Positions 13,167 to 56,423 of a DNA stretch of 64,000 nucleotides are shown piece after piece. Every line of letters starts with the position of its first letter. Within the stretch, counting starts at the first letter, position 1. The notes beneath the pieces are model-generated. The model saw nothing but the letters and a program-made list of their open reading frames with translations. It searched no databases and was not told where the DNA came from. Made by a program: the position numbers and the translations under genes. The stretch comes from Roseobacter sp. (GTDB taxonomy: Bacteria; Pseudomonadota; Alphaproteobacteria; Rhodobacterales; Rhodobacteraceae), in the NCBI GenBank assembly GCA_015665415.1, contig JADFAE010000013.1, positions 1-64,000 of the forward strand. Reading direction: 5' to 3'.

Positions 13167-13233
13167 TGTCACCAGTTTTAGACAGGGTTTTGGGTCTCTC
13201 CAGCCCTTTTTCTTGGATGCCCAAGCCATCCGA

Positions 13234-15920: not shown

Positions 15921-16307
15921 TCGGCATTCTCCTCATTGTCAACGCCTGCCACCTGTTCCGGGGTCAGACGAGTTTCTGCTCTGTCTTTGGCCTGCCAACT
16001 GCGCGTTTGCTTGCCAGCAACGCCAGACGGTCAGCCGCAACCAAATCTCGGGCGAATTTGCCTCAGGCTGATCTGCCGCTGTCGGGGGAACCGGCTGGGC
16101 TAGGCTCAACCTACGCCGAAAGATCGCCGGTGCAAGCGTCACTGTCGTAAAGGTGAAGATGGGAAGACCTCCCCCTCCTGCCAAGGGGCAATGCAAAAAC
16201 ACTGCTGCTGTGCAACGACCTGCAAGCGAGAGATGAAAATCGCCAAGCCAAATCAGACCCGGACTAACAACCCCGGTCCGCCTGGTGCTCAGCAAAAATC
16301 AAAACGC
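15921..16307. other. Intergenic stretch of about 390 bp
   Basis: No supported gene. Short frames here have poor codon use and no ribosome binding site. It separates the M16 pair from the upstream lipoprotein gene and may contain the M16 promoter. Confidence 0.35.
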
Positions 16308-16829: not shown

Positions 16830-16884
16830 TTCCCCAATACTCCCGCCAGTTTCAACGCGGTTTTAGCCTATTTCCAAAGGCAGG

Positions 16885-17370
16885 TCACGCAGGCTTTTTC
16901 ACCCGGCCCTCAAACAGGATCAAACCCGCTGCTCCACCAAAGATGAAGACATCCGCGAGGTTGAACACATAGGGATTGTTCAAGCCGCAACAGGACATGT
17001 TGAGAAAGTCGAGCACATAGCCATAGAGCAGGCGATCCGCCACATTTCCCAGCGCGCCGCCAATGACCAGCCCGGCAGAGATCTGCATCACCGGGCCTTT
17101 GCTTTCGCCGCGCCCGACCCAGATCATCAGGGCCAGACAGATCACCAGCGACAGACCAATAAGGGCCCAGCGCGCGACATCATCGCCGCCACCAAAAAGA
17201 CCAAAGTTGATGCCGGTATTCTCGCCGTAGCGGAAATTCAGCAAAGGCGGCAGCACATCGATACTCAGCCGCTGCGACAGGCCCATCCAGTGGATCACCA
17301 GATACTTGCTGGCTTGATCCAGGAGAAAGGCCCAGAAGGCGCCCCAGAATATCATACGTGCTGCTGCCAT
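16885..17370 (-). CDS. lspA: Lipoprotein signal peptidase (signal peptidase II)
   Basis: Cleaves signal peptides of diacylated prolipoproteins. Four membrane helices are visible and the two catalytic aspartates lie in GNVADRLLYG and FNLADVFIF. The start MAAARMIFWG at 17370 (161 aa) fits the family length and avoids overlap with purH, which ends at 17390; the frame is open further upstream, but those residues are shadow coding of purH. Confidence 0.93.
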   Translation of the reverse strand: MAAARMIFWGAFWAFLLDQASKYLVIHWMGLSQRLSIDVLPPLLNFRYGENTGINFGLFGGGDDVARWALIGLSLVICLALMIWVGRGESKGPVMQISAGLVIGGALGNVADRLLYGYVLDFLNMSCCGLNNPYVFNLADVFIFGGAAGLILFEGRVKKPA

Positions 17371-17389
17371 GTTCTTATCCGTGTCCTGG

Positions 17390-18979: not shown

Positions 18980-19024
18980 GGCAGGGCGGTCCTTTTACGG
19001 GCTCAGTACGGGCAGCGTACAGGC

Positions 19025-20779: not shown

Positions 20780-20884
20780 GCTCTCTGCCTCACGCCTTCT
20801 GTGCTGTAGGTTGCAGGCGTTTTGGCAAAAATATAGCCGCCTTGGCGCGTCAAGTCACCGGCGAATGCAATCTCGAGTGAATCC

Positions 20885-43400: not shown

Positions 43401-44312
43401 TCAGCTCTGCGAGGCGCTGCGGCTTTGCCCTCGCAATTGACGGATCAGCGGAATTGAATAAATCACCAATGCCGCCCAAATCATCGGAAAGGCGATCATT
43501 CTGGCCCCTCCGAACTCTTCCCCAAAGACAAAGACCGCACAGAGAAAGATCATCGTCGGCGCGATATATTGCAGGATCCCGATGGTAGAGAGCCGCAGCA
43601 GTTTTGCGCCATTGGCATAGACAATCAACGGCACCGCCGTCACGACGCCACAGCCCATCAGCAAGGCCACGTCAGATCCTGAAAAATGGGTACCTCCTTG
43701 GGAGGAGAGATAGGCCAGATACCCGAGCGCGGGCGGTGTCAGGATCAGCACTTCCAGCATGAAACCCTGATTGGGCCCCACCGGAAGTTTCTTTTTGAAG
43801 AAGGCATAAAATCCCCAGGACAGGGTCAAACCGACGGCGGCCCAGGGCAAACGACCGGCCTCGAGGGTCAGAACCACAACCGCTGCGGCGGCTAGCGCAA
43901 TGGCGGCCAACTGTGCCCGGGTCAGGCTTTCGCGCAGCAGCACAGCCCCTAGTGCGACACTGAACAAAGGATTGATGTAGTAGCCCAAGGCGGCATCCAG
44001 CGCATGACCGCTGGCGATGGACCAGACGTAGATCCCCCAATTTACCGAAATCAGCGCTGCGGTGACACAGGCCATGGCCAATGTGGCCGGGCTTTTGAGG
44101 GCCGCCCGCAGATCCTTGGTCCGCCCCGCAATCACCAGCAGCAACCCGGCAATCGGCAGCGACCACAACACCCGATGCGCGACAACCTCAGCCGGTGGGA
44201 TATGCGCAACCAGCTTCATGTACAGCGGCAGGAACCCCCACAAGACATAGGCAGAAATGGCAAAGGCCAGGCCCTGCGGGGTATCAGTATCTTCACGGCC
44301 AGGCTGGGACAT
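43401..44312 (-). CDS. rarD: RarD-type EamA transporter
   Basis: 303 residues, ten membrane helices in two EamA repeats; the N-terminal AYVLWGFLPLYMKLV is typical for RarD. Members export small amphipathic molecules or amino acids. It lies on the same strand 156 bp downstream of the halogenase operon, behind an interleaved inverted repeat, so it could serve as product exporter; that link is inference. Confidence 0.88.
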   Translation of the reverse strand: MSQPGREDTDTPQGLAFAISAYVLWGFLPLYMKLVAHIPPAEVVAHRVLWSLPIAGLLLVIAGRTKDLRAALKSPATLAMACVTAALISVNWGIYVWSIASGHALDAALGYYINPLFSVALGAVLLRESLTRAQLAAIALAAAAVVVLTLEAGRLPWAAVGLTLSWGFYAFFKKKLPVGPNQGFMLEVLILTPPALGYLAYLSSQGGTHFSGSDVALLMGCGVVTAVPLIVYANGAKLLRLSTIGILQYIAPTMIFLCAVFVFGEEFGGARMIAFPMIWAALVIYSIPLIRQLRGQSRSASQS

Positions 44313-44402
44313 ATCAGGCTCCTTCACGGTGCCTTTATCGCAGCTCAACCAGAAAGGAAAAGCGCAGTTTCTGTGCGCTCCCCTATCACCAGAATTGATC
44401 AA

Positions 44403-44468: not shown

Positions 44469-46307
44469 CTACAGGTGCTTTTCAAACCAGAAATGCGCAT
44501 AGGGCTCTGCGTTGAAGGCCTCAACCTCCGCATAGCCCAAGCCCCGATACAACGCCTGTGCCTCCGCCAGGGACCGATTGGTCTCCAGCTGCAGCGTCCC
44601 ATAGCCCAGCTCTGCGGCAACCGCTTCCAGTTTGTGCAAAATCTTGCGTGCCAAACCCTGTCTGCGCAGATCCGGATCGGTCCACATGCGCTTGATTTCA
44701 GCCACATCGGGTCCTTTGCCCTTGAGCGCGCCGCAGCCCACTGGCCGGCCGTTCAATTCGGCCAAAACAAAACAGCCGGTGGGGGAAATCAGATCGTCGT
44801 CCTCCGCAGGGTTGCTGCTGGCGGGATCAAAGCCGGTGTCAAACCGCGTCGACAATTCCTGAAAATACTGCTGCACACACCAGCGCGCGTTGGCACTGTC
44901 TGGCCGCACCACTTTGACCGATACATTGGCCTTGGCAGCGGTGACATCAGCCCCTGCGGAACCCGCATACCGGCTGCGGCGGAACGGCAGGTGCAGGCGG
45001 TCGCGCAGGGTGGCTCCCTGTGACTGGGGTTGCGGCTGGTGGTAGCCGCGATCCTCTAGAATGGGCAGAACATGGGCGACAAAGTCATCCAGCCCAAATC
45101 CCAGCACCGGAAACCCCAGCATAAAGCCATCCGCCGCCCCCTCCTCGCGCCAGCGGATCAGCTCATCGGCGATGTCACCCGCCGCGCCGATAAAGCCTTG
45201 CGAGGTGCCGATATGCGCGCGCAAGATTGCTGTCTCAAAGGCGACCTCTCGCAGGGTCTGCCCCTGTTCGCAGGCGATGCGCTTGATCTCTTCGGTGGTC
45301 GAGCGAAAGCCGTCCTTGCCAAGATCCGCCAGATCAGGAAAGGGCGCATCCAGCGGGTAGAGGCTGAAATCGTGCTGGTTAAAGAAATGGCTCAGATAGT
45401 TGAGCGCATCTTCCACGCTTAGCAGATCGCGCAGCTCACGACATTTTTGCTCCGCCTCCTGCGCCGTGGCCCCCACAATCGGGCCGATCCCCGGAAACAC
45501 CTTGATGTCATCAGGATTGCGGCCATGGGCGCGGGCACTGTCCTTCACCTGGCGGTAAAAGCGCTGGGCCTGTTCAAAACTGCCACCATTGGTAAAGACG
45601 GCATCGGCCCATTTTCCCGCCAGCTCAATACCATCTGCAGAGGCCCCGGCCTGAAAGATCACCGGCTGCCCCTGGGGTGAGCGGCCAATGCTCAGCGGAC
45701 CTTCAACGCTGAAGAAATCGCCCTGATGATTGGCCCGGTGCATTTTACTGGGGTCAAAATACCGGCCCGAAACCGGATCGCGGATGAAGGCATCATCCTC
45801 CCAGCTGTCCCAGAGCTTGCTGATTGCATCGATGTAATCCTCTGCCATCTGATAGCGCAGCGCGTGTTCAGGATGGGCGCGCCCGTAGTTGCGGCCCGAG
45901 CCTTTCAGCGGCGAGGTGACGGCATTCCAGCCCGCCCGCCCGCCACTCAGCGCGTCAATGCTGCCAATCTGCCGGGCCACCGTGAAGGGGTCGCTGTAAG
46001 AGGTCGAGACCGTACCTACCAGGCCAATCCCACTTGTCGCCGCCGCCAAAGCCGACAGCAAGGCCACCGGCTCAAACCGGTTGAGAAAATGCGGAAAGGA
46101 TTTTTCATGGATATGCAGCCCATCGGCGATAAAGACAAAATCCATACCTGCCGCCTCGGCCTTGAGCGCGCGGTCGCAGTAAAAGTTGAAATTGCTGCTG
46201 GCATCGACGGGCACACTGGGATGACGCCAGGCGTTCATGTTCACGCCTGCCCCTTGCAGCATGACGCCAAAATGAATCTTGGGCGTGCCCCGCTCACGCC
46301 GACTCAT
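44469..46307 (-). CDS. Luciferase-like flavin monooxygenase fused to a GNAT acetyltransferase
   Basis: A 612-residue fusion. Residues about 10-440 form an NtaA/SnaA/DszA-type FMNH2-dependent monooxygenase (WRHPSVPVDASSNFNFYCDRA, DALSGGRAGWNAVTSPLKG, GRSPQGQPVIFQAGAS). After a short linker, residues about 460-612 are a GNAT domain with the acetyl-CoA loop RRQGLARKIL (about 548) and a late ALYRGLGYAEV. Last gene of the halogenase operon; its start overlaps the LeuA-homologue stop by 4 bp. The monooxygenase may oxidise the amino acid (for example at nitrogen) and the GNAT may acetylate the product for self-protection; both are inferred. Such fusions are unusual. Confidence 0.85.
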   Translation of the reverse strand: MSRRERGTPKIHFGVMLQGAGVNMNAWRHPSVPVDASSNFNFYCDRALKAEAAGMDFVFIADGLHIHEKSFPHFLNRFEPVALLSALAAATSGIGLVGTVSTSYSDPFTVARQIGSIDALSGGRAGWNAVTSPLKGSGRNYGRAHPEHALRYQMAEDYIDAISKLWDSWEDDAFIRDPVSGRYFDPSKMHRANHQGDFFSVEGPLSIGRSPQGQPVIFQAGASADGIELAGKWADAVFTNGGSFEQAQRFYRQVKDSARAHGRNPDDIKVFPGIGPIVGATAQEAEQKCRELRDLLSVEDALNYLSHFFNQHDFSLYPLDAPFPDLADLGKDGFRSTTEEIKRIACEQGQTLREVAFETAILRAHIGTSQGFIGAAGDIADELIRWREEGAADGFMLGFPVLGFGLDDFVAHVLPILEDRGYHQPQPQSQGATLRDRLHLPFRRSRYAGSAGADVTAAKANVSVKVVRPDSANARWCVQQYFQELSTRFDTGFDPASSNPAEDDDLISPTGCFVLAELNGRPVGCGALKGKGPDVAEIKRMWTDPDLRRQGLARKILHKLEAVAAELGYGTLQLETNRSLAEAQALYRGLGYAEVEAFNAEPYAHFWFEKHL

Positions 46308-47560
46308 TGCGCCGGCTCCTCGCAGGGCCGCACAAGGTCGGCGCAGAGCGCATGCAATTGGAGGTCACTGACCGTTTTATGCTTGTCTGCCAGGGATTTG
46401 AAACGGGCAAAGGTCTCTGCCAATTCGGCATCATTCAGGCTGTAGCCCAATGCCCGCAGGCGGGCGCGCAGGGCGTTGCGACCACTGTGTTTGCCCAGGA
46501 CCAAGCGACTCTCGCGCAGCCCCAGGGCAGCGACATCCATAATTTCATAGGTCTGCCGATGCTTGAGGATCCCATCCTGATGAATACCTGATTCATGCGA
46601 AAAGGCATTGGCACCCACAATCGCCTTGTTGGGGGGCACCACAAGCCCCGTCAGCTCTCTGACCAAGGCGCTGGACGGCAGGATCTCAAGCGGATCAATC
46701 GCCGTTTCCAGCTGAAACAGGGATTTGCGCGTGCGCAGCGCCATGATGACCTCCTCCAGACAGGCATTGCCGGCCCGCTCACCAATCCCGTTGATGGTGA
46801 CTTCGATCTGGCGACAACCATTTTCGAGACCGGCCAATGTATTTGCCGTGGCCAGCCCCAGATCATCATGACAATGGCAACTGATCACCACCTCGGGACG
46901 AGCCAGAAACTGGTCAGACACCTTTTTGATCAGCACCCCGTATTCGGCGGGCGTGGCATAGCCTACGGTATCGGGGATATTGAGGGTTTCCGCCCCCATT
47001 TCCGCTGCAATTTCGAGCACGTCGAGCAGAAAACCCGGATCACTGCGGGTCGCGTCCTCCGGGCTGAACTCAACATTGCCACACAGGGCATAGGCCATGC
47101 CCACCGTTTGCCGGGCGATCTCCAGAACCTCAGCATGCGACTTGCCCAATTTATGTTTCAGGTGGATATCGCTGGCGGGCAGCACGATGTGAATGCAGGG
47201 CGACTTTGCGGCCTGCACCCCCTGCCAGGCCAGATCAATATCTTGCCGATTGGCCCGCGCCATGGCGGCAATGGCAGGGGGCGCAGAACCATGACCTCCA
47301 GGCACGGCATTGCGGTCTACTGCGCCCACCTGCTGTGAAATCTGCTGCACCGCCTTCAGATCATCCAGGCTCGACGCTGGAAACCCTGCTTCGATGACAT
47401 CCACCCCAAGCCGGGACAACTGCCTGGCAATCAGTAGCTTTTCGCGCGAATTCAATGTCGCCCCCGGGCTCTGCTCTCCATCCCGCAGAGTGGTGTCAAA
47501 AACCCTGATCCCTTTATAGGTGGTCGACCTGGTCCTTGGAGAATGCGTGTCCTTGGTCAT
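46304..47560 (-). CDS. 2-Isopropylmalate synthase homologue lacking the regulatory domain
   Basis: 418 residues of the DRE-TIM metallolyase family: the metal/keto-acid motif FDTTLRDGEQSPG, the HCHDDLGLATAN ligand pair and NGIGERAGN, then the subdomain-linker region ANAFSHESGIHQDGIL. Sequence ends near residue 418, so the roughly 120-residue leucine-binding allosteric domain of ordinary LeuA is missing. Known chemistry is condensation of acetyl-CoA with a 2-oxo acid. In this cluster it could extend a (chlorinated) 2-oxoisovalerate or make unregulated leucine precursor. The ATG at 47560 follows AGGAG and overlaps the upstream thioesterase gene by 47 bp. Confidence 0.87.
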   Translation of the reverse strand: MTKDTHSPRTRSTTYKGIRVFDTTLRDGEQSPGATLNSREKLLIARQLSRLGVDVIEAGFPASSLDDLKAVQQISQQVGAVDRNAVPGGHGSAPPAIAAMARANRQDIDLAWQGVQAAKSPCIHIVLPASDIHLKHKLGKSHAEVLEIARQTVGMAYALCGNVEFSPEDATRSDPGFLLDVLEIAAEMGAETLNIPDTVGYATPAEYGVLIKKVSDQFLARPEVVISCHCHDDLGLATANTLAGLENGCRQIEVTINGIGERAGNACLEEVIMALRTRKSLFQLETAIDPLEILPSSALVRELTGLVVPPNKAIVGANAFSHESGIHQDGILKHRQTYEIMDVAALGLRESRLVLGKHSGRNALRARLRALGYSLNDAELAETFARFKSLADKHKTVSDLQLHALCADLVRPCEEPAQ

Positions 47561-48371
47561 GATGATCTCCTGTCTGGTCAAGCAATTGGTTCAGCTCAAT
47601 GGTCACTTCACGTAAAAGATCCTGCTCTGAGTGCTGCAGGAAGAAATGATCCCCCGCCAACATAACCCTGCGTATCCGGTGGCTTGTCTGGCGCTGCCAG
47701 CCTGCCAGGCCTGCGGAGTGAACAAGGCGATCCCGCGCCCCACTGAGCACCAGGATCGGGCAGGTCAGCGGCCTCTGGTCCTGATGCAAATAATCCGCCG
47801 AAATGGTCAGGTCTGCCCGCAGGCGCGGCAGCCACAGCTCCCACAGATCCGGATCCTGCAGCAGAGTTTCGGGGACCCCGTAATATTTGCGCACAGCGGC
47901 AACAAACTCTGCGTCCGGCAGCAATTCCATGCCCCGATCGACCCATTGAAACTGCGGCGCATTTCGGCCCGAAACAATCAACCGGTCGGGTTGCGGCAAA
48001 CCCAATCTGCGCAGCTCTCGAATGGTGTTGAACCCGATGAGACTGCCCATGCTGTGGCCAAAAAAGGCAAAGGGCCTGTCCAGCAACGGGGCAAGCGCGG
48101 CAGCAATGGCGCCAGAGATCTCCCCCATATCGGTCAGCAGCGGCTCCGAAAACCGGTAGCCACGCCCCGGCAGCTGGACCGCCCATAGCTCTGCCTCAGC
48201 CATCAGCCTGTCCGGCCAAAGGCGAAACATCGCAGCATCGGCACCGGCATGGTGAAAGCAGAACAGCCGTGCCTTGGCCGGAACCGCAGCGCTGTGACGG
48301 ATCAGCCAAGGGGAGTGATTTGGTTGGCTGTGATCCATCATGCTGCCCAACCCATACGGCAGCCAAGGCAC
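47514..48371 (-). CDS. Type II thioesterase 1 (alpha/beta hydrolase)
   Basis: 285 residues, NRPS/PKS-associated thioesterase: LFCFHHAGADAAMF, nucleophile in FFGHSMGS, Asp in LSGARDRL and His in AGDHFFL. The GTG at 48371 has AGGA 6 bp before it; ATGs at 48341/48338 are alternatives. It may release the modified amino acid from the carrier protein, like CytC4 in dichloroaminobutyrate synthesis (known precedent), or clear misloaded carriers. A second paralogue lies two genes upstream. Confidence 0.88.
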   Translation of the reverse strand: MPWLPYGLGSMMDHSQPNHSPWLIRHSAAVPAKARLFCFHHAGADAAMFRLWPDRLMAEAELWAVQLPGRGYRFSEPLLTDMGEISGAIAAALAPLLDRPFAFFGHSMGSLIGFNTIRELRRLGLPQPDRLIVSGRNAPQFQWVDRGMELLPDAEFVAAVRKYYGVPETLLQDPDLWELWLPRLRADLTISADYLHQDQRPLTCPILVLSGARDRLVHSAGLAGWQRQTSHRIRRVMLAGDHFFLQHSEQDLLREVTIELNQLLDQTGDHHDQGHAFSKDQVDHL

Positions 48372-48477
48372 AACAGATCCTGCTGCAAGCGTGGACTGTG
48401 GCCAGAAGGCCGAGCCCTGCTCCTACAGCGCCAACCAAAGCGTTCCGGTTGCACGCTCTTTTGTGTAGCTACCGCCA

Positions 48478-49161
48478 TTACATGACCGAGAACTTGTTGA
48501 AGGCCTCAACCACACTCGCGCCGCCCTCGATCGCCTCTCGCACCTGTTTTTCCAAATTGTTCTTGGCCAGAGCGCGGGTGATGATCTCCTCTTCGGCTTC
48601 GTGGGGAACCACGCAGACGCCATCGCTATCGCCGATGATCAGATCACCGGGGCGCACCCGCACTTTGCCAACGGTGATCGAACAGCGATAATCCACCACA
48701 TTGTGCCGCCCCTGCAATCCATAGGCATAAGAGCCATGCGCATAGACCGGGATGTTCAGCGCCTTGATGCCTTCGGCATCGCGGATATTGCCATTGATCA
48801 CCAGACCCGCAGCCCCCAAGGCCTTGGCACGGGTAATCAGCATATCGCCCAGACGGGCGGCATATGTTGGCGCACCAGTCGAGATATATACCTCGTGGGG
48901 ACGCAGGGCCTCGACCGATTCAAACAACAGGCCAAAGGGCTTGGCATCAAACCGTTTTGGCGTGCCATGTGGCACCGGCACATCGTCCTGCACCGGCATC
49001 GCCCGCCCAACCATGATCTTGTCCGGGCGCAGCGGCTGGATCTGATGCGGCAGCATCGGGGTAAGGAAGCCAAGCTGCTCCATCACATCACTTACCGGAC
49101 AGGTGGAAAGCTCCGTCCGGATCAGCTCAAAGAATTCATCATCTGAATGCCAGGTTGTCAT
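48478..49161 (-). CDS. RraA-fold aldolase/decarboxylase-like protein
   Basis: 227 residues of the RraA / 4-hydroxy-4-methyl-2-oxoglutarate aldolase family: CPVSDVMEQLG, ARLGDMLITRAKALGAAGLVI, the conserved Arg-Asp in NGNIRDAEGI and GDLIIGDSDGVCVVP. Family enzymes cleave or decarboxylate 2-oxo acids such as oxaloacetate and HMG, which fits a pathway with a LeuA-type condensing enzyme. Start at 49161 follows AAAGGA and overlaps the second thioesterase stop by 23 bp. Confidence 0.82.
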   Translation of the reverse strand: MTTWHSDDEFFELIRTELSTCPVSDVMEQLGFLTPMLPHQIQPLRPDKIMVGRAMPVQDDVPVPHGTPKRFDAKPFGLLFESVEALRPHEVYISTGAPTYAARLGDMLITRAKALGAAGLVINGNIRDAEGIKALNIPVYAHGSYAYGLQGRHNVVDYRCSITVGKVRVRPGDLIIGDSDGVCVVPHEAEEEIITRALAKNNLEKQVREAIEGGASVVEAFNKFSVM

Positions 49162-49942
49162 CTGTATGTCCTTTGCGTTTGGATGCTTGGGCTGGCAACA
49201 GCCGTGCCAGCTCATCGGTTACGTGCCCGGCCAGCTGTTGCTCTGCCTCGTGCAGAAAGAAGTGGCCGCCAGGGAGCCCGTCATAGCAATGAAAGCTCGC
49301 CCGTGTTTCGCTCTCCCACCCGCGTGCGCCCGCGCCGCTGGCCATGCTGTCCTGCAGACCAAAGAACACTGCAATCCGGCACGTCAACGGGGGCAGTCTC
49401 CTGTAGTCATAGGTCTCGTAGATGGCCCCATCCGCCCGAATGCGCGGCAACAAAAGCTGCAGCAGCTCAGGGCTCTGCAACACCAGATCAGGGGTGCCGT
49501 CACAGGCGCGCAGAACCTCGGTGAATTCGGCATCATTCAACTGATGCCGCAGGGTCGAGGGCCTTTGCCGCGGTGTGTTCTGCGCCGACAGCATCAACAG
49601 CTGCGGCATCGGCAGACTGCGCCGCCGCAGCTCTCGCGCCAGCGCAAAGCAGATCATGGCGCCGGTGCTGTGACCAAAAAAGGCAAAGGGCCGGTCAAGC
49701 AGCGGTGCGATAGCCTCTGCCAAATCCGCAGTGACCTGCTCCATCCTGGTGATCAGGGGCTCATGCAAGCGCCCCTCGCGACCGGGCAGCTGTACCGCCG
49801 CCAGGTCAACGTGATCAGGCAGCCAGCTGCGCCAGGACCGGTAGATTGAGGCACCGGCCCCGGCATAGGGAAAACAAAACAGCCTGCAGGATGCCGCCTG
49901 GTTGCCAGGGCTCTCGGCAAGCTCAAACCAGGGCGTCTTCAT
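49139..49942 (-). CDS. Type II thioesterase 2 (alpha/beta hydrolase)
   Basis: 267 residues, paralogue of the other thioesterase in this operon. Nucleophile in FFGHSTGA, Asp in FFGLQDSM and His in PGGHFFLHE; the N-terminal FCFPYAGAGASIY is typical of NRPS type II thioesterases. The start MKTPWFEL at 49942 overlaps the halogenase stop by 20 bp. Two thioesterases for a single carrier protein suggest a division of labour between product release and editing or acyl transfer. Confidence 0.88.
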   Translation of the reverse strand: MKTPWFELAESPGNQAASCRLFCFPYAGAGASIYRSWRSWLPDHVDLAAVQLPGREGRLHEPLITRMEQVTADLAEAIAPLLDRPFAFFGHSTGAMICFALARELRRRSLPMPQLLMLSAQNTPRQRPSTLRHQLNDAEFTEVLRACDGTPDLVLQSPELLQLLLPRIRADGAIYETYDYRRLPPLTCRIAVFFGLQDSMASGAGARGWESETRASFHCYDGLPGGHFFLHEAEQQLAGHVTDELARLLPAQASKRKGHTDDNLAFR

Positions 49943-50867
49943 CTTTAAGCACCGCCTGGCCATTGCTGCCCTGCTGCTCGCCTGTTTGCATCGGCAGGCG
50001 CACGCGATTGTGCTTGTAGCTGTCTTTGCCCTTGACCAGAACGGTCGAGTAACGGTCCAGGTTCAGGGTTTCGCCAAAGTGCTGGAAACTGTCCTGATTG
50101 GCATAGACCTTCACATGGGTCGGCACAAACCGGGTGGCCCAGCCAAATCGCGTGGAATCGGTGGTGCTGTTTGGATTGGACCCATGCATGCAGCGCGAGG
50201 TGAACAGGAAGAATTGCCCCGCCTTGACCTCCATATGCACGGCCTTTTCCTCATCTGGGACCCAGGTTTCATCCAGTTTCAGCCGGTCCCAATCATAGCC
50301 AAAGAACCCGGATTTCTTGCCAACCGTGTTCAGCTGATTGATGTTCTCAGGCTCAAAGGGAATGTTGCGCTTTTCGTCAAAATACCAGGTGTGATGAGTC
50401 CCCGGCATCACTTTCAGGCAGCCATTGGCGCGGGTGGCATCGGACATCGCAATCCAGGCTGTCAGCTCCCAGGGCTTGCCTTCCTCGGCCGCCGTCGGCT
50501 CGATTTTCTCAGTGCCTTCGAATTCGACAAAACTTTCGGCCTGATGCCAATCGGTTGCCTCATCGCCGGGGTATTTCGGGAACCACTCGCTGCGCCATCC
50601 CAGCACATCGGGGCCGAGGATACTGGCGACGCGATCCGTCAGCTTTGGATTGGTGAAGATCTGGTTCAGCTGCAGCAAATCAAGATGCCGGTCGTAGTTC
50701 AGTTTGCTGTTGGGAAAAGGCGCTGCATCCGTATCCAAGATATCCATACGGATCTGCTGCCAAATTTCAGTCATTTCCTCAGGCTCAAAAAGCGTAAAGG
50801 GGCCAACATAGCCATTTTCTTCAAAAAATTTCATTTCTGCGTCGGAGAGTTGAAAGCTCATAGTCAT
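49923..50867 (-). CDS. SyrB2/CytC3-type non-haem Fe(II)/2-oxoglutarate halogenase
   Basis: 314 residues of the PhyH superfamily. The facial triad reads His108-Gln109-Ala110 (in GDEATDWHQAESF) with distal His228 (RCMHGSN) and 2-oxoglutarate Arg246 (FGWATRFVP). Ala replaces the carboxylate of hydroxylases, the known hallmark of halogenases of the SyrB2, CytC3 and BarB type, which leaves a site for chloride. From memory the protein also matches SyrB2 around FPKYPGDE, ANGCL and GFFGYDW. Known members halogenate amino acids bound to a carrier protein, and a stand-alone carrier is encoded 31 bp upstream. GAGG lies 8 bp before the ATG. Confidence 0.9.
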   Translation of the reverse strand: MTMSFQLSDAEMKFFEENGYVGPFTLFEPEEMTEIWQQIRMDILDTDAAPFPNSKLNYDRHLDLLQLNQIFTNPKLTDRVASILGPDVLGWRSEWFPKYPGDEATDWHQAESFVEFEGTEKIEPTAAEEGKPWELTAWIAMSDATRANGCLKVMPGTHHTWYFDEKRNIPFEPENINQLNTVGKKSGFFGYDWDRLKLDETWVPDEEKAVHMEVKAGQFFLFTSRCMHGSNPNSTTDSTRFGWATRFVPTHVKVYANQDSFQHFGETLNLDRYSTVLVKGKDSYKHNRVRLPMQTGEQQGSNGQAVLKDEDALV

Positions 50868-50898
50868 GGAATGCCTCGCGCGTTTGAGGAAAGGAAAT

Positions 50899-51132
50899 CT
50901 ACTGGGTGACCAACTCTTTCTGAGAAAGCTTGGCAGCGATCTGGGAATCGATTTCAGCGCTGATTGCCGAAATGCTGGAACCGGTCTTGTGAAAGAACAT
51001 CCGCGGCGACGGGGTTGTTCCGGTCTCTTGCTTCACTTGTTTCAGGATTTCGACGAGATTCAGGGAATTGCCGCCGATATCCAGAAAGCGCGCCTCAGCG
51101 GAAAGCCCGCTGAGGCCAATCACACGTTCCAT
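50899..51132 (-). CDS. Stand-alone peptidyl carrier protein
   Basis: The ATG frame gives 77 residues with the phosphopantetheine site in FLDIGGNSLNLVEIL (Ser23). The ATG cuts into helix I: the same frame continues upstream as STEAKLTQI with a GGAGG eight bases before an ATC codon at 51162. The natural protein may therefore start at that near-cognate codon (87 residues). First gene of the minus-strand operon; likely partner of the adenylation protein encoded on the other strand and substrate carrier of the halogenase. The phosphopantetheinyl transferase must be elsewhere. Confidence 0.87.
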   Translation of the reverse strand: MERVIGLSGLSAEARFLDIGGNSLNLVEILKQVKQETGTTPSPRMFFHKTGSSISAISAEIDSQIAAKLSQKELVTQ

Positions 51133-51162
51133 AATCTGGGTAAGTTTGGCCTCGGTACTGAT

Positions 51163-51791
51163 AGCTATACCCTCCGGTCTAGAGTTTCATAGGAAAGCAA
51201 ATACCGCCGTCGGTCTGTCGCGGTGGCATCCGGTCTGCAGGCGATTGGCCGCCCTCAACCCAAATGGGCGGGAGCGGAAATGACTGTTCCTGTGGGGGAG
51301 CTCAGAACCACCCGGGCAGGCGGAAATGAAACAGCTTTAAACTGACCAATCACCAATGTGATCAGGACCTTTGTGGGAGACGCCCCCAAGAGAATCACCA
51401 ATCACATCTTGAGATTATTTATACCCGCATAACGTGTCAAATGCGTTTGTGCCGAAGATTGGGAATACAAGGCCTGAAATGGCACGATAATGAAAATGTA
51501 ATAAATTACCACAATTTCCTCATTTTGAGTTGATTAAGCCAATTTCGCTGATACCGTTTCCCGGCAGGAGGCTCTAAACACCCCTCTGCCGCGCATCCGC
51601 ATTGCTTGCGGCAACCGGCGATCAAGACACTGCTTCAGCATTGCCCAAGGGACGTTTTTTAGCGCAGACACTGCGCCTGAGCTTCCCAATAAATCGAGGC
51701 ACTACTGTCGTCAAAGTTGCGGTTGCCAAACCCGGCATGACGACATGCATGTGCGCCCGAAACACCAACAAAATAGAAGGGAGGTGAAATT
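51163..51791. promoter_or_regulatory. Divergent promoter region of the halogenase cluster
   Basis: About 630 bp without a supported gene, clearly AT-richer (51400-51560) than its surroundings. AATCACCAAT occurs at 51348-51357 and 51393-51402, the first within ATCAC-CAAT-GTGAT (51349-51362); these are candidate regulator sites for the minus-strand operon. No lux-type box or clear sigma-70 pair could be assigned by eye. Confidence 0.4.
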
Positions 51792-51989
51792 GTGGTAGAT
51801 ATGACAGATCACCGTGCCGTATTGGCGCTGGCATCAAAAGATCCAGTGAAACCAGCGACGATACCAGCGGAAGTTGCGGCCAAAATTGGCGAATCTGACC
51901 CCGAGCCAGCGAAGGCTCCACTCGAAGCGTCAGGCCCAGCTGCCGATGCTGCTCCACGCGTAGCAAGTGCCTTGGAAGCTGTTGCATAA
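51792..51989 (+). CDS. Small cluster-encoded protein (65 aa)
   Basis: A GTG start preceded at ideal distance by AAGGGAGGTG, one of the best ribosome binding sites in the window. The product is rich in Ala, Pro, Glu and Asp (SDPEPAKAPLEASGPAADAAP), has no Cys or Trp, no signal peptide, and ends in ALEAVA. It lies between the divergent operons. It could be a scaffold or precursor peptide, a regulator, or a short protein of another kind; no family is recognised. Confidence 0.6.
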   Translation: MVDMTDHRAVLALASKDPVKPATIPAEVAAKIGESDPEPAKAPLEASGPAADAAPRVASALEAVA

Positions 51990-52023
51990 CAGCTGAAGGA
52001 TTGCCGCGCTAAGCAACACGATG

Positions 52024-52063
52024 GATGCCCTGGATAGATGCCCTGGATAGATGCCCTCAGATA
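52024..52063 (+). repeat. Triple 13-bp tandem repeat
   Basis: GATGCCCTGGATA occurs twice in perfect tandem (52024-52036, 52037-52049), followed by a third degenerate copy (GATGCCCTCAGATA). It sits just after the small gene and may be polymorphic between strains. Confidence 0.7.
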
Positions 52064-52065
52064 AC

Positions 52066-52100
52066 GGCAGCCCCCCTCCACGATTGGGCGGGGGGGGCCA
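52066..52100 (+). terminator. GC-rich hairpin before the LeuRS paralogue
   Basis: GGCAGCCCCCC ... GGGGGGGGCC can form a strong stem with a loop of about 13 nt. No T-run follows, so it may be an attenuating structure between the small gene and the synthetase gene. Confidence 0.4.
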
Positions 52101-52235
52101 CTTAACGATAATGTAAAATACCCAATCAAAACCTGCATCAAATCACAATTGACTATCCCAATTTTACAACCTAAGGTATTAATGAGAAAAGGTTAACCCG
52201 TCCAAATTCGCACAGCCTTCAAGAGAGGGATCGAA

Positions 52236-54530
52236 TTGAATATCAGCCACATTCCTCCCAATGACCTCTCCCTCAAGTGGCAGCATATCTGGCGCGAAAG
52301 TGGCGTATTCTCCACCAGAACCTCTCCCGAAAAGCCCCGATATTACGGATATGAATACCCCCCTTTCCCAAGCGGGTCCTTGCATATGGGCCACGTTCGC
52401 AATTACGTCATCGGCGACACGCTCGCCCGATACAAGCGGTTGCGCGGCTACAATATCCTCTACACGCAGGCCTTTGATTCCCTCGGCCTGCCCGTCGAAG
52501 ATGCCGCGCGGAAGTCAGGGATGACACCCGCCCAGTGGCTAGAGAACTGCATTGCGGACATGACGGCTGAGTTGCTGCAATTGGGGCTGAGCTATGATCA
52601 GGCCAAGATCTATTCCTACCATGATCCAGACTACTACAAATGGACTCAGTGGATCTTTCTCAAGCTGCACGAGGCGGGGGCAATCTATCGCGCCCAAAGC
52701 TGGTCGGACTGGTGTGACAGCTGCAAAACCGCCCTGGCTTTTGAACAGGTGGAAGAGGGCTGCTGCTGGCGCTGCGGCACCCAGACCACCAAGACGCGGC
52801 AGCCACAATGGTATATTGACGTGCAAAGTATTGCGCCGGACCTGCTTGCCGGGCTGGAGCATTACAATTTCCCCAAAGCCGCCAAGACCCTGCAGCGCAA
52901 CTGGATTGGTCGCCTCCCCGGCCTCTTTGTCGACTTCCAGCTCGAAGGGCAGGCGCAAGCGCTCAAGGTGTTTACCACCCGGCCAGACCTGATCTATGGC
53001 ACCAGCTTTCTGGGCCTGGCCCCGGAACACCCCGCCATCCCTACGCTGATCAAAGGCGCCCCGGATGAGGCCCGCCTTCTGGCTACGGTGCAGGACATGT
53101 GCACCCTGCCCCGGGTTGAACGGATGAAAGCGCCAGAGCGCGAGGGCCTGTTCCTGAATCAGCACGCCATCCACCCGCTGACTGGAGAGCTGGTCCCGCT
53201 TTACGTCACCCCCTTTGTGCAACAGGACCTGGGCACCGGGGCCATCCTTGGCTGCCCCAGCCATGACACCAACAGTTTCCGGTTTGCCAAAACAATGGGA
53301 ATTGTACCAAAGCCGGTCCTCGCATTGACGGACGGGACCGCGCCGCCGCCTGACCACCCCTATTGTGACGACGGCATATTGGTCGACAGCGGCCCATACA
53401 GCGATATGAGCTCAGCCGCAGCAAGGGCGGCCATCACTCAGGACCTGATCCAAAGCGGCACCGCCCGCACCGGAGAGACCTTCAGGGTGCGCGATTGGTG
53501 CATTTCGCGGCAGCGCTACTGGTCCTGCCCGATCCCCATCGTTCATTGCCCCCAATGTGGCCCGGTTCCGGTTGCGACCAGCGACCTGCCGGTCACGCTG
53601 CCGACAGAGGGCGTGGATCTGAATTGCAATGGCAACCCCTTGGAGCATCACGCTGAATTCCTGGCTGCGGACTGTCCGGCCTGCGGGGCAACCGCCCGTC
53701 GCGAGGCCAGCACGCTGGATACCTTTGTCAACAGCTCCTGGTCCTATATGCGCAACTGCAACCCGGATCATCACACCGGTTTTTGTGACACCGCCGCAGT
53801 GGAGTATTGGGTGCCCAGCGATCTGGACATCGGCGGAACTGAGAATATCACCGTTGCCAATTTCTATTTCCGCGTCGTGCTGCAATGGCTGCACCGGCTG
53901 GGGTTGACCAGCGCCAGCGAACCTTTCAAGTCCTCGATTTTTCACGGCATGGTGCTGATGGATGGGCGCAAGATGTCCAAATCGGTCGGCAATACCATCC
54001 GCCCTCAGGATCTGATCCGGGACTATGGCGTCGACGCGGTGCGGTTTCACAGCATGTGGGCGGCGCGCCCGGAAAACGACTACAATTGGTCCGATGAAAA
54101 GGCTGCCGCCGCACAGCGGTTCTTATCCGGTGTCTGGCAAACCTCAATTGACATCATCCAGCTGCTAGAGCGCCCAGTGTCGCAAGGCTCAGCCGGGACG
54201 GTGCGCACCAAGGCCGAAAAAAGCTTTGCCAGGCAGTTTGACGTGGGCCGCACCAAGATTGAAAGATCCTACGACACCGCTGAGCTGCAGGCCGCTTGTA
54301 ACGCGCTGATCCTGCTGCAGGACAAGGTCAAAAAATACCTGGGCAAACTGCAGACCCAGACGCAGGTGACTGCGCAGCAGTCCGAGCTGTTGCGCCAGGC
54401 CTTGCGGGGAATGCTGATCATGCTCAACCCCATTGCCCCCCATCTCACCGAAGAGCTGTGGCTGCGCATGGGCAACAGCAAAATGCTGGCCGAACATGAC
54501 CATTGGGAGGATATGATCCATGCTGGTTAA
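52236..54530 (+). CDS. Divergent leucyl-tRNA synthetase paralogue
   Basis: 764 residues, class Ia. HMGH (50-53) and KMSKS (579-583) are intact, as are two zinc-type Cys clusters (C160/C163/C177/C180 and C438/C441/C480/C483). Differences from housekeeping LeuRS: the GGxEHAxxHLLY block in the amino-acid site reads GGTENITVANFY (533-544), losing both histidines; Leu252 replaces the editing-site Thr of TTRPDT; Ser347 replaces the universally conserved editing Asp (GHDQRD becomes SHDTNS); the leucine-specific insert before KMSKS and the C-terminal tRNA-binding domain are absent. TTG start with GAGAGGG. It overlaps the adenylation gene by 11 bp. Either an immunity enzyme against a leucine mimic or a synthetase for a special tRNA. 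Confidence 0.9.
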   Translation: MNISHIPPNDLSLKWQHIWRESGVFSTRTSPEKPRYYGYEYPPFPSGSLHMGHVRNYVIGDTLARYKRLRGYNILYTQAFDSLGLPVEDAARKSGMTPAQWLENCIADMTAELLQLGLSYDQAKIYSYHDPDYYKWTQWIFLKLHEAGAIYRAQSWSDWCDSCKTALAFEQVEEGCCWRCGTQTTKTRQPQWYIDVQSIAPDLLAGLEHYNFPKAAKTLQRNWIGRLPGLFVDFQLEGQAQALKVFTTRPDLIYGTSFLGLAPEHPAIPTLIKGAPDEARLLATVQDMCTLPRVERMKAPEREGLFLNQHAIHPLTGELVPLYVTPFVQQDLGTGAILGCPSHDTNSFRFAKTMGIVPKPVLALTDGTAPPPDHPYCDDGILVDSGPYSDMSSAAARAAITQDLIQSGTARTGETFRVRDWCISRQRYWSCPIPIVHCPQCGPVPVATSDLPVTLPTEGVDLNCNGNPLEHHAEFLAADCPACGATARREASTLDTFVNSSWSYMRNCNPDHHTGFCDTAAVEYWVPSDLDIGGTENITVANFYFRVVLQWLHRLGLTSASEPFKSSIFHGMVLMDGRKMSKSVGNTIRPQDLIRDYGVDAVRFHSMWAARPENDYNWSDEKAAAAQRFLSGVWQTSIDIIQLLERPVSQGSAGTVRTKAEKSFARQFDVGRTKIERSYDTAELQAACNALILLQDKVKKYLGKLQTQTQVTAQQSELLRQALRGMLIMLNPIAPHLTEELWLRMGNSKMLAEHDHWEDMIHAG

Positions 54531-56142
54531 GGCCCTATTTAACCCATCCCCGCAATGCACGGTGCAGACCCTGGCTGGTGCCATCCGACAACATGCCAGC
54601 GAGATCCCCGACACCTGCGCCATCGCGGATTCGCATCGCCAGATCGACTACAGAACGCTGGATCGCTTTGGCACCAGATTTGCCCTGCAGCTGGCAGAGA
54701 TGGGCTGCAAACCCGGGGATCGGGTTGTTGTCCTGGCAAACCGTTGCGCCGTTGTTCTGGCCGCCATTGTTGGAACCTTCAAATCCCCTTTCATTCACGT
54801 GCCGCTGGATCCGCAAATGCCCCCCAACCGGCTGGCCTATATCCTTGCGGATATTGCCCCGGCCGTGGTTGTCACCGATACCGAATATCACGACAGTGTC
54901 GCAGGCCTGCTGCCGCCTGAAGCGCATGTTTTTCTGCGACGTGATCTGGAGGCCATGCTGGCCAAAGTGAGCAAAGAGGATCACACGGAATCAGAGCCAA
55001 CCACCTTGGCCGATTGTGATCCCGATGCCCCAGCCTATTGCATCTATACCTCCGGTTCCACCGGCCGCCCCAAAGGCGTCATCATCCCACATCGCAGCAT
55101 CGCCCCCTTCTTTGATGGCAGCCGCGCTGTCTATGATGTTCGCCGCCACTCGGTCTGCGCCAGCTTTTCACCACTGCATTTCGACGTCTTTCTCATGGAT
55201 ATGCTGTTTCCGCTGTCCCAGGGGGCCACCCTGCATGTCTTTGACGATGTGGTCGCCCCCGACTTCCTGTTTGACCTGATCTGCGATAACAAAATCACCC
55301 ATTTTTCCGCCTGGGGCATGATGCTGGGGCTCATCGCCCAGGCCGAGGCCTTTGACTCCACCAGGCTGCCAGCGCTGCAAACAATCCTGACAGGCACCGA
55401 TGTCCCCGACATCAAGACGGTGCAAAACTGGCTTGCCAAGAACACCGGTGTCACCGTGCTCAACGCCTATGGCCCGACGGAGGCGACCTGCGCCTCGACG
55501 GCGCATGTCATCCGCGAGATCGAGCCTGAGCGCAAAGCCCTTTACCCGATCGGCAAGCCGCTGAAACACGTGCAGATCCTGGTGGTAGACGATGACGACC
55601 AGCCGGTTGATACAGCGGATACCCCCGGTGAGCTGCTGGTAGGCGGCATTCAGGTGATGCAGGCCTATTGGAACCGCCCGCAAGAGACAGAGGCGCGGCT
55701 GATCTCACACAGAGGTATCCGTTACTATCGAACTGGTGACATCTGCTCCTATCTGCCGGATGGCAGCCTGTTCTACCACGGTCGGCGCGACAACGAGGTG
55801 AATATCGGTGGACGCCGCGTGCATCTGAATGAGGTGCAAAGAGTAATCTGTAGCGTGCCCGGTGTGCACAGCGCCGAGGTGGTCACCTTTGAAACCGCCC
55901 ACGCAGAGCAGATTCTTGCGGCGGCGATTTTGCTCGACGGTGGACGTTGCACCCATGTCGACACTGAACTTACGGCAATACGGCAAAGCCTGAGCGACGA
56001 GCTGCCGGCCTATATGGTCCCGCGCCACATAAAGATCTGCGGCAGTTTCCCATTGCTGTCCTCGGGCAAGCCCGACCGGCGGGCGCTCTTGTCGCAACTG
56101 CGTGCAGAACATCTGGCCAAAACAGGAGAGATTGCCATGTAA
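54520..56142 (+). CDS. Stand-alone NRPS adenylation domain
   Basis: 540 residues: A3 TSGSTGRPKG (177-186), A5 NAYGPTE (315-321), A7 YRTGD (403-407), A8 GRRDNEVNIGGRRV and A10 Lys517 in SSGKPDRR. No carrier or condensation domain is attached. My hand-read of the substrate-code positions is D-V-M-S-L-G-A-C-A-K, compatible with an aliphatic amino acid but not matching a code I know. It should activate an amino acid and load the carrier protein encoded on the other strand, as CytC1/CytC2 do. Translationally coupled to the LeuRS paralogue. Confidence 0.9.
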   Translation: MLVKALFNPSPQCTVQTLAGAIRQHASEIPDTCAIADSHRQIDYRTLDRFGTRFALQLAEMGCKPGDRVVVLANRCAVVLAAIVGTFKSPFIHVPLDPQMPPNRLAYILADIAPAVVVTDTEYHDSVAGLLPPEAHVFLRRDLEAMLAKVSKEDHTESEPTTLADCDPDAPAYCIYTSGSTGRPKGVIIPHRSIAPFFDGSRAVYDVRRHSVCASFSPLHFDVFLMDMLFPLSQGATLHVFDDVVAPDFLFDLICDNKITHFSAWGMMLGLIAQAEAFDSTRLPALQTILTGTDVPDIKTVQNWLAKNTGVTVLNAYGPTEATCASTAHVIREIEPERKALYPIGKPLKHVQILVVDDDDQPVDTADTPGELLVGGIQVMQAYWNRPQETEARLISHRGIRYYRTGDICSYLPDGSLFYHGRRDNEVNIGGRRVHLNEVQRVICSVPGVHSAEVVTFETAHAEQILAAAILLDGGRCTHVDTELTAIRQSLSDELPAYMVPRHIKICGSFPLLSSGKPDRRALLSQLRAEHLAKTGEIAM

Positions 56143-56234: not shown

Positions 56235-56423
56235 GCACCTATAGCTTAACTGGCAAGAGGCAGCCTCAGCAGAAGACTCGGAAACCTTGGCAAAGAAACA
56301 GATGGTTACCCAGGGCATCGCTGTCAGCGGACGGGCCATTGCGGAAAGGTTGGAGCGACGCTGCCCAAAAGCACCGGCTTTGGAGGCCGGAGACTACGGG
56401 TTCAAATCCCGTTAGGTGCTCCA
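56235..56423 (+). tRNA. tRNA-like gene (anticodon UGG) with about 113-nt insertion in the D-loop
   Basis: Acceptor GCACCTA (56235-56241) pairs perfectly with TAGGTGC (56413-56419), followed by U73 and encoded CCA. T8, A9 and D-stem GCTT (56244-56247) pair with AAGC (56369-56372), and the D-loop holds the conserved GG. Anticodon arm CCGGC-TTTGGAG-GCCGG (56374-56390), variable loop AGACT and T arm ACGGG-TTCAAAT-CCCGT are canonical. About 113 nt lie inside the D-loop, closed by GGCAGC (56259-56264) / GCTGCC (56360-56365), with AACCTT/AAGGTT and further internal stems. G1-C72 and U73 differ from bacterial tRNA-Pro (C1-G72, A73), so prolyl-tRNA synthetase is unlikely to charge it. Possibly a dedicated tRNA of the cluster, or a broken tRNA. 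Confidence 0.7.

Follow-up and report, generated by a model that had tools for sequence, protein, structure and literature searches.

Why a LeuRS paralogue should stand among the genes of an amino acid halogenation pathway is the question raised by this locus, which lies in a window of 64,000 nt (the whole stretch of DNA that was analysed). A sequence-only reading had described here a stand-alone adenylation protein, a stand-alone carrier protein, an Ala-triad non-haem iron halogenase and thioesterases, joined by a LeuA homologue without feedback domain, an RraA-type enzyme, a flavin monooxygenase–GNAT fusion and the LeuRS paralogue, with no condensation domain. This observation is confirmed, since all the named genes are present (Table 1) and no condensation domain was matched in the nine cluster proteins scanned. 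Comparison with the neighbourhoods in other genomes, a check which that reading had itself put forward, showed that the set is conserved elsewhere, so it is not a chance assembly. However, the most telling parts of the cluster had been missed: a small ORF, a repeat array behind it, and a tRNA-like gene lying just beyond the end coordinate of the earlier description.

The LeuRS paralogue, the tRNA, the CCA-rich ORF and the repeats occur together in four alphaproteobacterial halogenase clusters—the window, loci L004 and L005 from MAGs, and L006 from Breoghania corrubedonensis DSM 23382—and once in a Ramlibacter MAG (L069), beside different tailoring genes. Only these five loci are known, and L006 is the only one from a named isolate. 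L069 has no halogenase match within its 19.9 kb, and the Ramlibacter halogenase cluster is on another contig. Further halogenase clusters used for comparison are L007, L008, L010 and L013, together with a Moorena locus (L009).

Table 1. Features of the halogenase cluster and the adjoining RNA elements, with positions in the window.
Position	Strand	Feature	Supporting observations
44469..46307	-	NtaA/DmoA-type FMN monooxygenase (LLM) fused to a GNAT N-acetyltransferase	TIGR03860 486 bits; PF00296 and PF00583; in L005, L006 and L010 only the monooxygenase part matched, in L007 only the GNAT part
46304..47581	-	2-isopropylmalate synthase (LeuA) homologue without regulatory domain	NF002086 566 bits; PF00682 and PF22617 only (HMGL and post-HMGL domains)
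47514..48371	-	Type II thioesterase 1	PF00975
48478..49215	-	RraA/HMG-aldolase-like enzyme	PF03737; 63-76% identical in L004, L005, L006, L007, L008, L010
49139..49963	-	Type II thioesterase 2	PF00975
49923..50867	-	SyrB2/BarB-type Fe(II)/2OG halogenase	TIGR01762 425 bits, cut-off 226; His-X-Ala motif (DWHQA) aligned with CytC3 and SyrB2
50899..51132	-	Stand-alone carrier protein	PF00550
51792..51989	+	Small ORF, proposed recoded product	65 codons, GTG start, strong Shine-Dalgarno GGGAGGTG; 7 CCA and 1 CCC proline codons; orthologues in L004, L005, L006 and an analogue in L069
52024..52057	+	Three GATGCCCT repeats (two of them GATGCCCTGG) in the 3' UTR of the small ORF, proposed tRNA-tethering array	13-nt spacing; arrays of 3, 5, 3 and 4 copies in the four alphaproteobacterial loci
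52066..52099	+	GC-rich hairpin following the repeats, possible end of the small-ORF transcript	No T-run; seen by eye, as were similar hairpins after the repeats in L004, L005, L006; not folded
52236..54530	+	LeuRS paralogue, 764 aa	Rebuilt leucine pocket; editing domain kept but its key residues changed; no C-terminal domain
54520..56142	+	Stand-alone amino-acid adenylation protein	TIGR01733 342 bits; PDB matches mostly NRPS adenylation domains, CytC1 among them
56235..56423	+	D-loop-extended tRNA (~190 nt, D-loop extension ~110 nt), CCA-ended	Anticodon UGG at 56381-56383; anti-repeat CCAGGGCATC at 56310-56319; Rfam tRNA hit 56360-56412; conserved in loci L029, L030, L006 and L069; covariance model built for it (R1) 213.9 bits; ARAGORN calls no tRNA here

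The interpretation given by the sequence-only reading, a set following the CytC1-C4 logic that makes a free chlorinated amino acid acting as a leucine mimic, is only partly supported. A carrier-protein-bound aliphatic halogenation set is well supported. The halogenase scores above the family cut-off and has the His-X-Ala motif in place of the His-X-Asp/Glu facial triad, although chlorination of an aminoacyl-carrier protein was not assayed. Its nearest relatives, besides the sister clusters, are not CytC1-C4 but the Moorena locus L009, which holds a carrier protein, two tandem halogenases (64 and 67% identical to the halogenase of the window), a thioesterase and an adenylation protein. This resembles the gene order of barbamide BarA-D and points to leucine as substrate, since the trichloroleucyl unit of barbamide is made by BarB1/BarB2 (PMC3252866). 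The ten-position code of the adenylation protein, DVMSLGACAK against DAMALGGCAK in L009, with positions assigned by motif, leaves the choice of leucine undecided. A free amino acid as the end product, although not excluded chemically, is not supported, as it does not account for the tRNA, the small ORF and the repeats, whose association with a LeuRS of altered pocket in the five loci points to ribosomal use of the amino acid.

The proline codons of the small ORFs are CCA in 7/8, 7/8, 10/11, 7/8 and 8/9 cases (39 of 44), against 38/293, 7/136, 2/102, 2/125 and 5/115 in chosen neighbouring genes. In the alignment of the four orthologous ORFs, the one non-CCA proline column is CCC in 4 of 4, and no CCA column uses another proline codon. 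Codon identity for proline pairs is 40/40, against 52/136 for pairs of other identical residues. In CCA columns that vary, the orthologues have M, V, A, S and, in one N-terminal column, H/R. When CCA is read as leucine, the peptide is predicted by AlphaFold as a helical hairpin (pLDDT 90.8, pTM 0.72), with helices 4-32 and 37-64 and the CCC proline at the start of helix 2, whereas the standard reading gives 58.1 and 0.24. However, the standard reading was also drawn as helices, at low confidence, and raised confidence would follow from replacing proline by many residues, so this prediction does not identify the residue. A test for a hydrophobic face is clear for helix 1 but weak for helix 2 (mean cosine 0.19-0.31). 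The recoded peptides gave no convincing match in Pfam or NCBIfam (best TIGR00996 at 20 bits, cut-off 140.5) and no PDB fold at E <= 0.001.

The tRNA has the anticodon UGG, which reads CCA, in 5 of 5 loci—a match established by sequence only—and ordinary tRNAs fit its model end to end with the insert deleted. Nevertheless, the free fold of the window's tRNA-like RNA is not unusually stable (z -0.39), and its anti-repeat is predicted mostly paired there (mean unpaired probability 0.23, against 0.78, 0.77, 0.48 and 0.65 in the others); a constrained refolding did not enforce the cloverleaf, and only its arm read-outs and free-ensemble probabilities are used. With the four sequences alone, covariation is modest, with 5 pairs changed on both sides and 28 of 500 shuffles as high. 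A normal tRNA-Pro(UGG), which would compete, was not looked for. The D-loop extension carries CCAGGGCAUC, the exact complement of the GATGCCCTGG repeats just downstream of the small ORF. Breoghania has UCAGGGCAUC with GATGCCCTGA in 3 of its 4 repeats, while the other three have CCAGGGCAUC with mainly GATGCCCTGG (2/3, 5/5 and 2/3 copies). The anti-repeat is otherwise invariant, so only one compensating change is seen, and single 10-nt matches arise in 8-43 of 1000 shuffles. The Ramlibacter pair, on the other hand, has 14 complementary nt, reached in 0 of 1000 shuffles. The array was found once per genome, at this locus only, in each of the five genomes, an arrangement that would suit an element confining recoding to one message, but its function was not examined and the sequence pattern leaves that role unsettled.

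The five LeuRS paralogues depart from a pocket that, but for F/L at position 41, is identical in the 12 other LeuRS compared, including AgnB2, the immunity LeuRS of agrocin 84. At 13 pocket and editing positions, the alphaproteobacterial paralogues share only the residues at 80, 342, 496 and 532 with canonical enzymes (252 is kept in L005 only), and all four have lost the editing aspartate. A changed pocket in 5 of 5 loci is compatible with a dedicated synthetase without deciding that it is one. The C-terminal domain that the window's paralogue lacks helps to bind tRNA in known LeuRS, a point against the explanation proposed below. The genomes of the core clusters L007, L008 and L013 gave only one LeuRS each, so halogenation and recoding are separable.

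The halogenase (E <= 1e-50) was found in 1 of 12 genomes of the genus, 2 of 394 of the family, 1 of 390 of the order and 2 of 385 of the class, own genome included each time. The LeuRS paralogue at E <= 1e-150 matched in 70 of 398 genomes of the phylum sample, but apart from the window itself (1824 bits) none exceeded 580 bits and all were 36-42% identical, which are taken for ordinary LeuRS (three of them, when checked, have the canonical pocket); the three alphaproteobacterial orthologues score 993-1034 bits by tblastn. The R1 model matched 381 of 385 class genomes, although in the best-first list only two genomes (G000 and G748) exceed 72 bits, the others listed being ~78 nt long and the ten that were typed being tRNA-Arg. 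Among plasmids, 27 records hold a halogenase relative, none at 60% identity or more, and there is no DNA match to the tRNA; seven LeuRS neighbourhoods (L070-L076, from 67 records) showed no R1 match, the other records of the LeuRS searches not having been examined. Viral contigs gave one repeat-pattern hit (L059) with no R1 or cluster-protein match, and five tRNA-pattern hits and one LeuRS hit without R1. Among 25 Ramlibacter-genus genomes the array is present in one (G1037) only, while single two-copy hits in two others (G1378 and G1387) had no R1 nearby.

Taken together, these data are best explained, and we consider it likely, by a self-contained natural expansion of the genetic code attached to an amino acid halogenation pathway. 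In this model, leucine, supplied in part by the extra LeuA, would be adenylated, loaded on the carrier protein, chlorinated by the BarB-like halogenase and released by a thioesterase, whereas RraA and the monooxygenase–GNAT may modify or detoxify it (their role is unknown). The LeuRS paralogue would charge the amino acid onto the dedicated UGG tRNA, and the tip of the enlarged D-loop would pair with the 3'-UTR repeats, concentrating the charged tRNA on that message. CCA codons of this one mRNA would then be read as the chlorinated leucine instead of proline, while CCC stays proline, giving a two-helix peptide with 7-10 such residues. The sequences themselves establish the parts and their linkage, the exclusive use of CCA, the complementarity with its one compensating change, and the alterations of the pocket, whereas charging, tethering, decoding, the identity of the amino acid and the function of the peptide are inferred, as nothing was tested at the bench and neither a product nor a non-canonical residue was measured. 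The whole platform recurs in L069. In a broader proposal, somewhat more likely than not, bacteria have evolved a modular, portable way of adding amino acids to the code: a LeuRS-derived synthetase and a D-loop-extended UGG tRNA decode CCA as a non-proteinogenic amino acid (a chlorinated leucine here, a different one in Ramlibacter), and direct pairing of the D-loop with a 3'-UTR repeat array, an RNA-only counterpart of SECIS/SelB, provides the specificity for a single mRNA.

Among the alternatives, recoding could be real but insert ordinary leucine, charged by the LeuRS paralogue onto the UGG tRNA. This would need only a LeuRS-like enzyme and agrees with the well-folded hairpin predicted for the leucine reading, but it is unlikely, because leucine codons were available, CCA is kept in 4 of 4 at four columns while normal Leu codons occur elsewhere in the same ORFs, the leucine pocket is rebuilt, and a chlorinating pathway sits in the same cluster.

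Slightly less probable is self-resistance, in which the cluster makes a free chlorinated leucine analogue and the LeuRS paralogue and regulation-free LeuA are immune copies of its targets, as AgnB2 is for agrocin 84. The lack of a LeuA regulatory domain, the existence of AgnB2-type immunity genes and the LysE-like exporters (named by eye) in the LeuRS-free clusters L008 and L010 favour it. However, AgnB2 keeps the canonical leucine pocket, which the five paralogues have changed, and an enzyme that must replace housekeeping LeuRS should not lose its C-terminal domain; charging of tRNA-Leu was not assayed. Neither does it explain the dedicated UGG tRNA, the CCA-only codons, the repeats or L069.

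A regulatory antisense RNA that binds the 3'-UTR repeats to control the small-ORF mRNA, with CCA read as proline, is also improbable. The complementarity to multi-copy repeats would fit, and the tRNA-like shape could be a stability device, but the invariant UGG anticodon, the exclusive CCA with one conserved CCC, the residues seen in CCA columns and the linkage with a LeuRS paralogue would be unexplained. Finally, a PEARL-like extension of a scaffold peptide, with the charged tRNA donating its amino acid to the C-terminus, is very unlikely despite the combination of small peptide, aaRS and tRNA and the alanine that ends four of the five peptides (the L069 one ends in isoleucine), as no LanB-like ligase was matched among the nine cluster proteins scanned against Pfam, the CCA codons are internal and the anticodon-codon match would be unexplained.

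Only selenocysteine and pyrrolysine are established additions to the genetic code. A third case would be, to our knowledge, the first to reassign a sense codon on one message only, the first with a halogenated residue, and the first where a tRNA finds its mRNA by base pairing. It would explain why a LeuRS paralogue sits with a halogenase, give a ready-made synthetase/tRNA pair with mRNA-restricted decoding for protein engineering, and open ribosomal peptides to amino acids so far thought to need NRPS.

The selenocysteine system (SelA-D, tRNA-Sec, SelB, SECIS) likewise has a dedicated unusual tRNA and an mRNA element that confines recoding to chosen messages. Here, however, the codon is the sense codon CCA and not UGA, there is an own aaRS, and recruitment is apparently by direct tRNA-mRNA pairing; no SelB-like factor was found among the nine cluster proteins scanned, the rest of the genome not having been searched for one. 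A further comparison is offered by the pyrrolysine system, PylRS/tRNA-Pyl (PMC3941956). There too, biosynthesis genes, a dedicated synthetase and a dedicated tRNA share one cassette, but it uses the stop codon UAG and a class II PylRS, in contrast to a sense codon and a class I LeuRS-derived enzyme, and has no multi-copy 3'-UTR array.

AgnB2 (PDB 5ah5) is also a second LeuRS within a biosynthetic locus, with 34% identity, but it keeps the canonical residues at all 13 positions examined, and no tRNA or CCA-rich ORF, although not searched for, is known to go with it. CytC1-C4 and SyrB1-SyrB2 share a His-X-Ala halogenase acting with a carrier protein, and CytC3 and SyrB2 are the best PDB hits, but they are more distant than the Moorena enzymes; the 20 plasmid-borne relatives listed of the 27 records are about 42-47% identical. 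The BarA-BarD leucine chlorination module (Moorena/Lyngbya) likewise has a carrier protein, a BarB-type halogenase, a thioesterase and a stand-alone adenylation protein. L009, however, feeds an NRPS/PKS protein, whereas the present cluster holds one halogenase, no condensation or PKS domain, the extra RraA, LeuA and monooxygenase–GNAT, and a tRNA/LeuRS/small-ORF module.

The genes named by the sequence-only reading are present and open, and its observation of a halogenase cluster holds. The halogenase has the His-X-Ala motif, aligned with CytC3 and SyrB2, and scores 425 bits against TIGR01762 (cut-off 226), while the adenylation and carrier proteins stand alone, and the LeuA homologue has only the HMGL and post-HMGL domains. 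Three features, however, had been overlooked: a small ORF behind a strong Shine-Dalgarno, a run of GATGCCCT repeats just downstream of it, and a tRNA-like gene, for which Rfam gives a partial tRNA hit (30.5 bits against a gathering score of 29), whereas ARAGORN calls nothing. The DNA between the divergent operons, which was not analysed, probably holds promoters or regulators. Directly downstream of the monooxygenase-GNAT gene lies a transporter gene that could encode an exporter, although it has no match in the loci L004–L016 recovered with the halogenase.

Coordinates of the features found in the window and in related loci
Source	Coordinates	Strand	Feature
Window	43401-44402	-	EamA transporter gene (RarD-like by visual inspection)
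Window	51160-51790		About 630 bp without a listed cluster gene, between the divergent operons
Window	51792-51989	+	65-codon ORF
Window	52024-52057		Run of GATGCCCT repeats
Window	56235-56423	+	tRNA-like gene
Window	56360-56412		Partial Rfam tRNA hit
L007, acidobacterial (Candidatus Angelobacter)	8061-20869		Halogenation core, followed by further AMP-binding enzymes
L013, Breoghania sp. MAG	9723-10853		Carrier protein and a halogenase matching in three separate pieces
L069, Ramlibacter MAG (G1037:C49)	8515-17400		Second recoding platform (proposed)

A search of genome contigs with the halogenase, which had been proposed from the sequence alone as a way of testing the cluster, returned 13 loci. 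Three of them, L004 (an alphaproteobacterial MAG), L005 (a Rhodobacter sp. MAG), and L006 (Breoghania corrubedonensis), hold the whole set: carrier protein, halogenase, two thioesterases, RraA, LeuA, monooxygenase, small ORF, LeuRS paralogue (61–65% identical), and adenylation protein, the last being cut by the end of the locus in L004 and L005. L005 and L006 add a branched-chain aminotransferase-like protein, named by visual inspection of its sequence. On the other hand, L007, L008, and L010 have the halogenation core without LeuRS, small ORF, or tRNA in the 18–21 kb examined. L008 and L010, both from Ramlibacter MAGs, are variants in which DmpG-type aldolase, acetaldehyde-dehydrogenase-like, LysE-like exporter, flavin-reductase-like, ATP-grasp-like, and (in L010) aminotransferase-like genes, mostly named by visual inspection, stand in place of LeuA. 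In L013 no other cluster gene was matched beside the carrier protein and the fragmentary halogenase, and this locus is probably a decayed remnant. When the genomes behind L007, L008, and L013 were searched with the LeuRS paralogue, one LeuRS was found in each, with the canonical pocket.

The same RNA of ~190 nt lies downstream of the adenylation gene in the window and in L005, L004, and L006 (85, 78, and 75% identity), L005 and L004 having been extended for this purpose by the stretches L029 and L030. It reads as a cloverleaf with a 7-bp acceptor stem, a D-stem GCTT/AAGC, an anticodon arm with the loop NTTGGNG and so the anticodon UGG in all, a 5-nt variable loop, a 5-bp T-arm, and a CCA end with discriminator U or G, and the extra ~110 nt sit in the D-loop. 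A covariance model built from the four sequences (R1) finds only these four at high score among 17 sources. In the class sample, only the genomes G000 and G748 exceed 72 bits in the best-first list for 385 genomes, while ordinary tRNAs (~78 nt) fit the model from end to end with the insert deleted; the ten that were typed by ARAGORN are tRNA-Arg. So the scaffold is that of a real tRNA. With the four sequences, the structure has 96.3% paired cells and 5 pairs changed on both sides (28 of 500 shuffles as high). Against this, the free fold of the window copy is not exceptional (z -0.39), and its anti-repeat is mostly paired in the free ensemble (0.23 unpaired). When the Ramlibacter copy described below is included, in an alignment that was fitted to the structure, there are 94.1% paired cells and 12 such pairs (0 of 500 shuffles; at most 6 when slid).

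The four small ORFs use CCA for proline almost exclusively (7/8, 7/8, 10/11, and 7/8), whereas neighbouring genes use it in 38 of 293 proline codons in the window (13 genes) and in 7/136, 2/102, and 2/125 in L004, L005, and L006 (5, 4, and 5 genes, respectively). The single non-CCA proline codon is CCC in the same alignment column in all four, within SDPE, ENPE, SDPE, and SDPD, and no CCA column shows another proline codon. Codons agree in 40 of 40 proline pairs, but in 52 of 136 pairs of other identical residues. In the CCA columns that vary, orthologues have M, A, A/S, S, V, A, V/A, and, in one N-terminal column, H/R, which are mostly hydrophobic or small helix-friendly residues, and never proline by another codon.

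Read with CCA as leucine, the peptide is predicted by AlphaFold2 to form a helical hairpin, with a mean pLDDT of 90.8 and a pTM of 0.72, in which the CCC proline begins helix 2. The same alignment read by the standard code gives 58.1 and 0.24, although helices are still drawn, at low confidence. The hydrophobic-moment test agrees for helix 1 and only weakly for helix 2. These results do not identify the residue, but they indicate that proline is unlikely and that a leucine-like residue fits.

The tip of the D-loop arm of the tRNA reads CCAGGGCAUC in three genomes and UCAGGGCAUC in Breoghania. The 3'-UTR arrays, in turn, read GATGCCCTGG in 2 of 3, 5 of 5, and 2 of 3 copies in the three, and GATGCCCTGA in 3 of 4 copies in Breoghania, which represents one compensating change. 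The copies number 3, 5, 3, and 4, at a spacing of 13–14 nt. A single 10-nt match alone would not be striking, since it arises in 8 to 43 of 1000 shuffles. In the four whole genomes the array pattern occurs at this place only, with no hit of the reversed control, and the predicted duplexes are of -18.6 to -20.7 kcal/mol.

An independent recurrence was found by searching the genomes behind L007, L008, L010, and L013 with the LeuRS paralogue (the genome of L009, a Moorena locus, was not included), which revealed a second LeuRS-like gene on another contig of the L010 genome, a Ramlibacter MAG. This stretch, L069, contains a 719-aa LeuRS paralogue, a full-length D-loop-extended tRNA (R1 77.7 bits) with anticodon UGG and the same CCAGGGCAUC, and, 38 nt further on, an 81-codon ORF behind AGAAAGGAGGTGAT, with 8 of 9 proline codons CCA (5 of 115 in four neighbours), followed by four GATGCCCTGG repeats. 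Its tRNA loop and repeats share 14 complementary nucleotides (0 of 1000 shuffles), and the array occurs nowhere else in that genome. Only the LeuRS was used to find this locus; the tRNA, ORF, and repeats were then there. The neighbouring genes differ, and comprise an AurF-like oxygenase, a TauD-like dioxygenase, a class V PLP enzyme, a methyltransferase, and an ATP-grasp-like protein recognised by visual inspection (no Pfam match in the frame scanned), so that a different amino acid is probably involved. The platform therefore seems portable between amino acids.

At 13 pocket and editing positions (E. coli numbering), the 12 other LeuRS compared, including AgnB2, are identical but for F/L at 41. 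These 12 were only a part of those recovered, namely the LeuRS of the host, the best match in each of the four genomes searched with the paralogue, 3 of 5 loci from the phylum sample, 3 of 7 plasmid loci, and AgnB2. Contrary to them, the four alphaproteobacterial paralogues share Y40, P41, F43, S499, D527, N533, and A537, and have S or A for D345, whereas the Ramlibacter enzyme has a third pocket (L, P, F, ... Y, M, D, Q, C), and Pfam finds no editing domain in it. The five paralogues form one side of a branch (100/99), but with long branches, so a common origin is not shown. All five lack the C-terminal domain and an insert before KMSKS that the LeuRS of the host has. In bacterial LeuRS this C-terminal domain touches the tRNA elbow, just where the tRNA described here has its insert. 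Among the plasmid loci, L072, from a Xenorhabdus bovienii megaplasmid, holds an extra leuS beside genes for an aaRS-related protein, asparagine synthetase A, a methyltransferase, and an LD-carboxypeptidase, and could be an unrelated natural-product locus; it has no R1 match and a canonical pocket, while L070 and L071, from conjugative Nostoc and Aulosira plasmids, hold short LeuRS-like proteins (about 590–600 aa) of unknown function.

Taken together, the cluster most likely makes a chlorinated leucine and inserts it at CCA codons of one dedicated mRNA, with the special tRNA tethered through its D-loop. In this model, the charging of the tRNA, the decoding, the identity of the residue, and what the peptide does are inferences. 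No description of such a system was found among the papers returned by full-text searches of the PMC literature on LeuRS paralogues, unusual tRNAs, halogenated amino acids, and natural expansion of the genetic code (PMC7609411 and PMC3252866 among them), although a previous report elsewhere cannot be excluded, since preprints on bioRxiv and most subscription papers were outside these searches.

The choice of leucine as the likely substrate comes from the comparison with L009 from Moorena, which has a carrier protein, two tandem halogenases (64 and 67% identity), a thioesterase, and an adenylation protein, followed by an A-PCP-KS-AT-DH protein. The adenylation code of the cluster is similar to that of L009, but not identical. 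From its gene order, L009 is read as barbamide-like, and BarB1 and BarB2 are described as making the trichloroleucyl unit of barbamide (PMC3252866).
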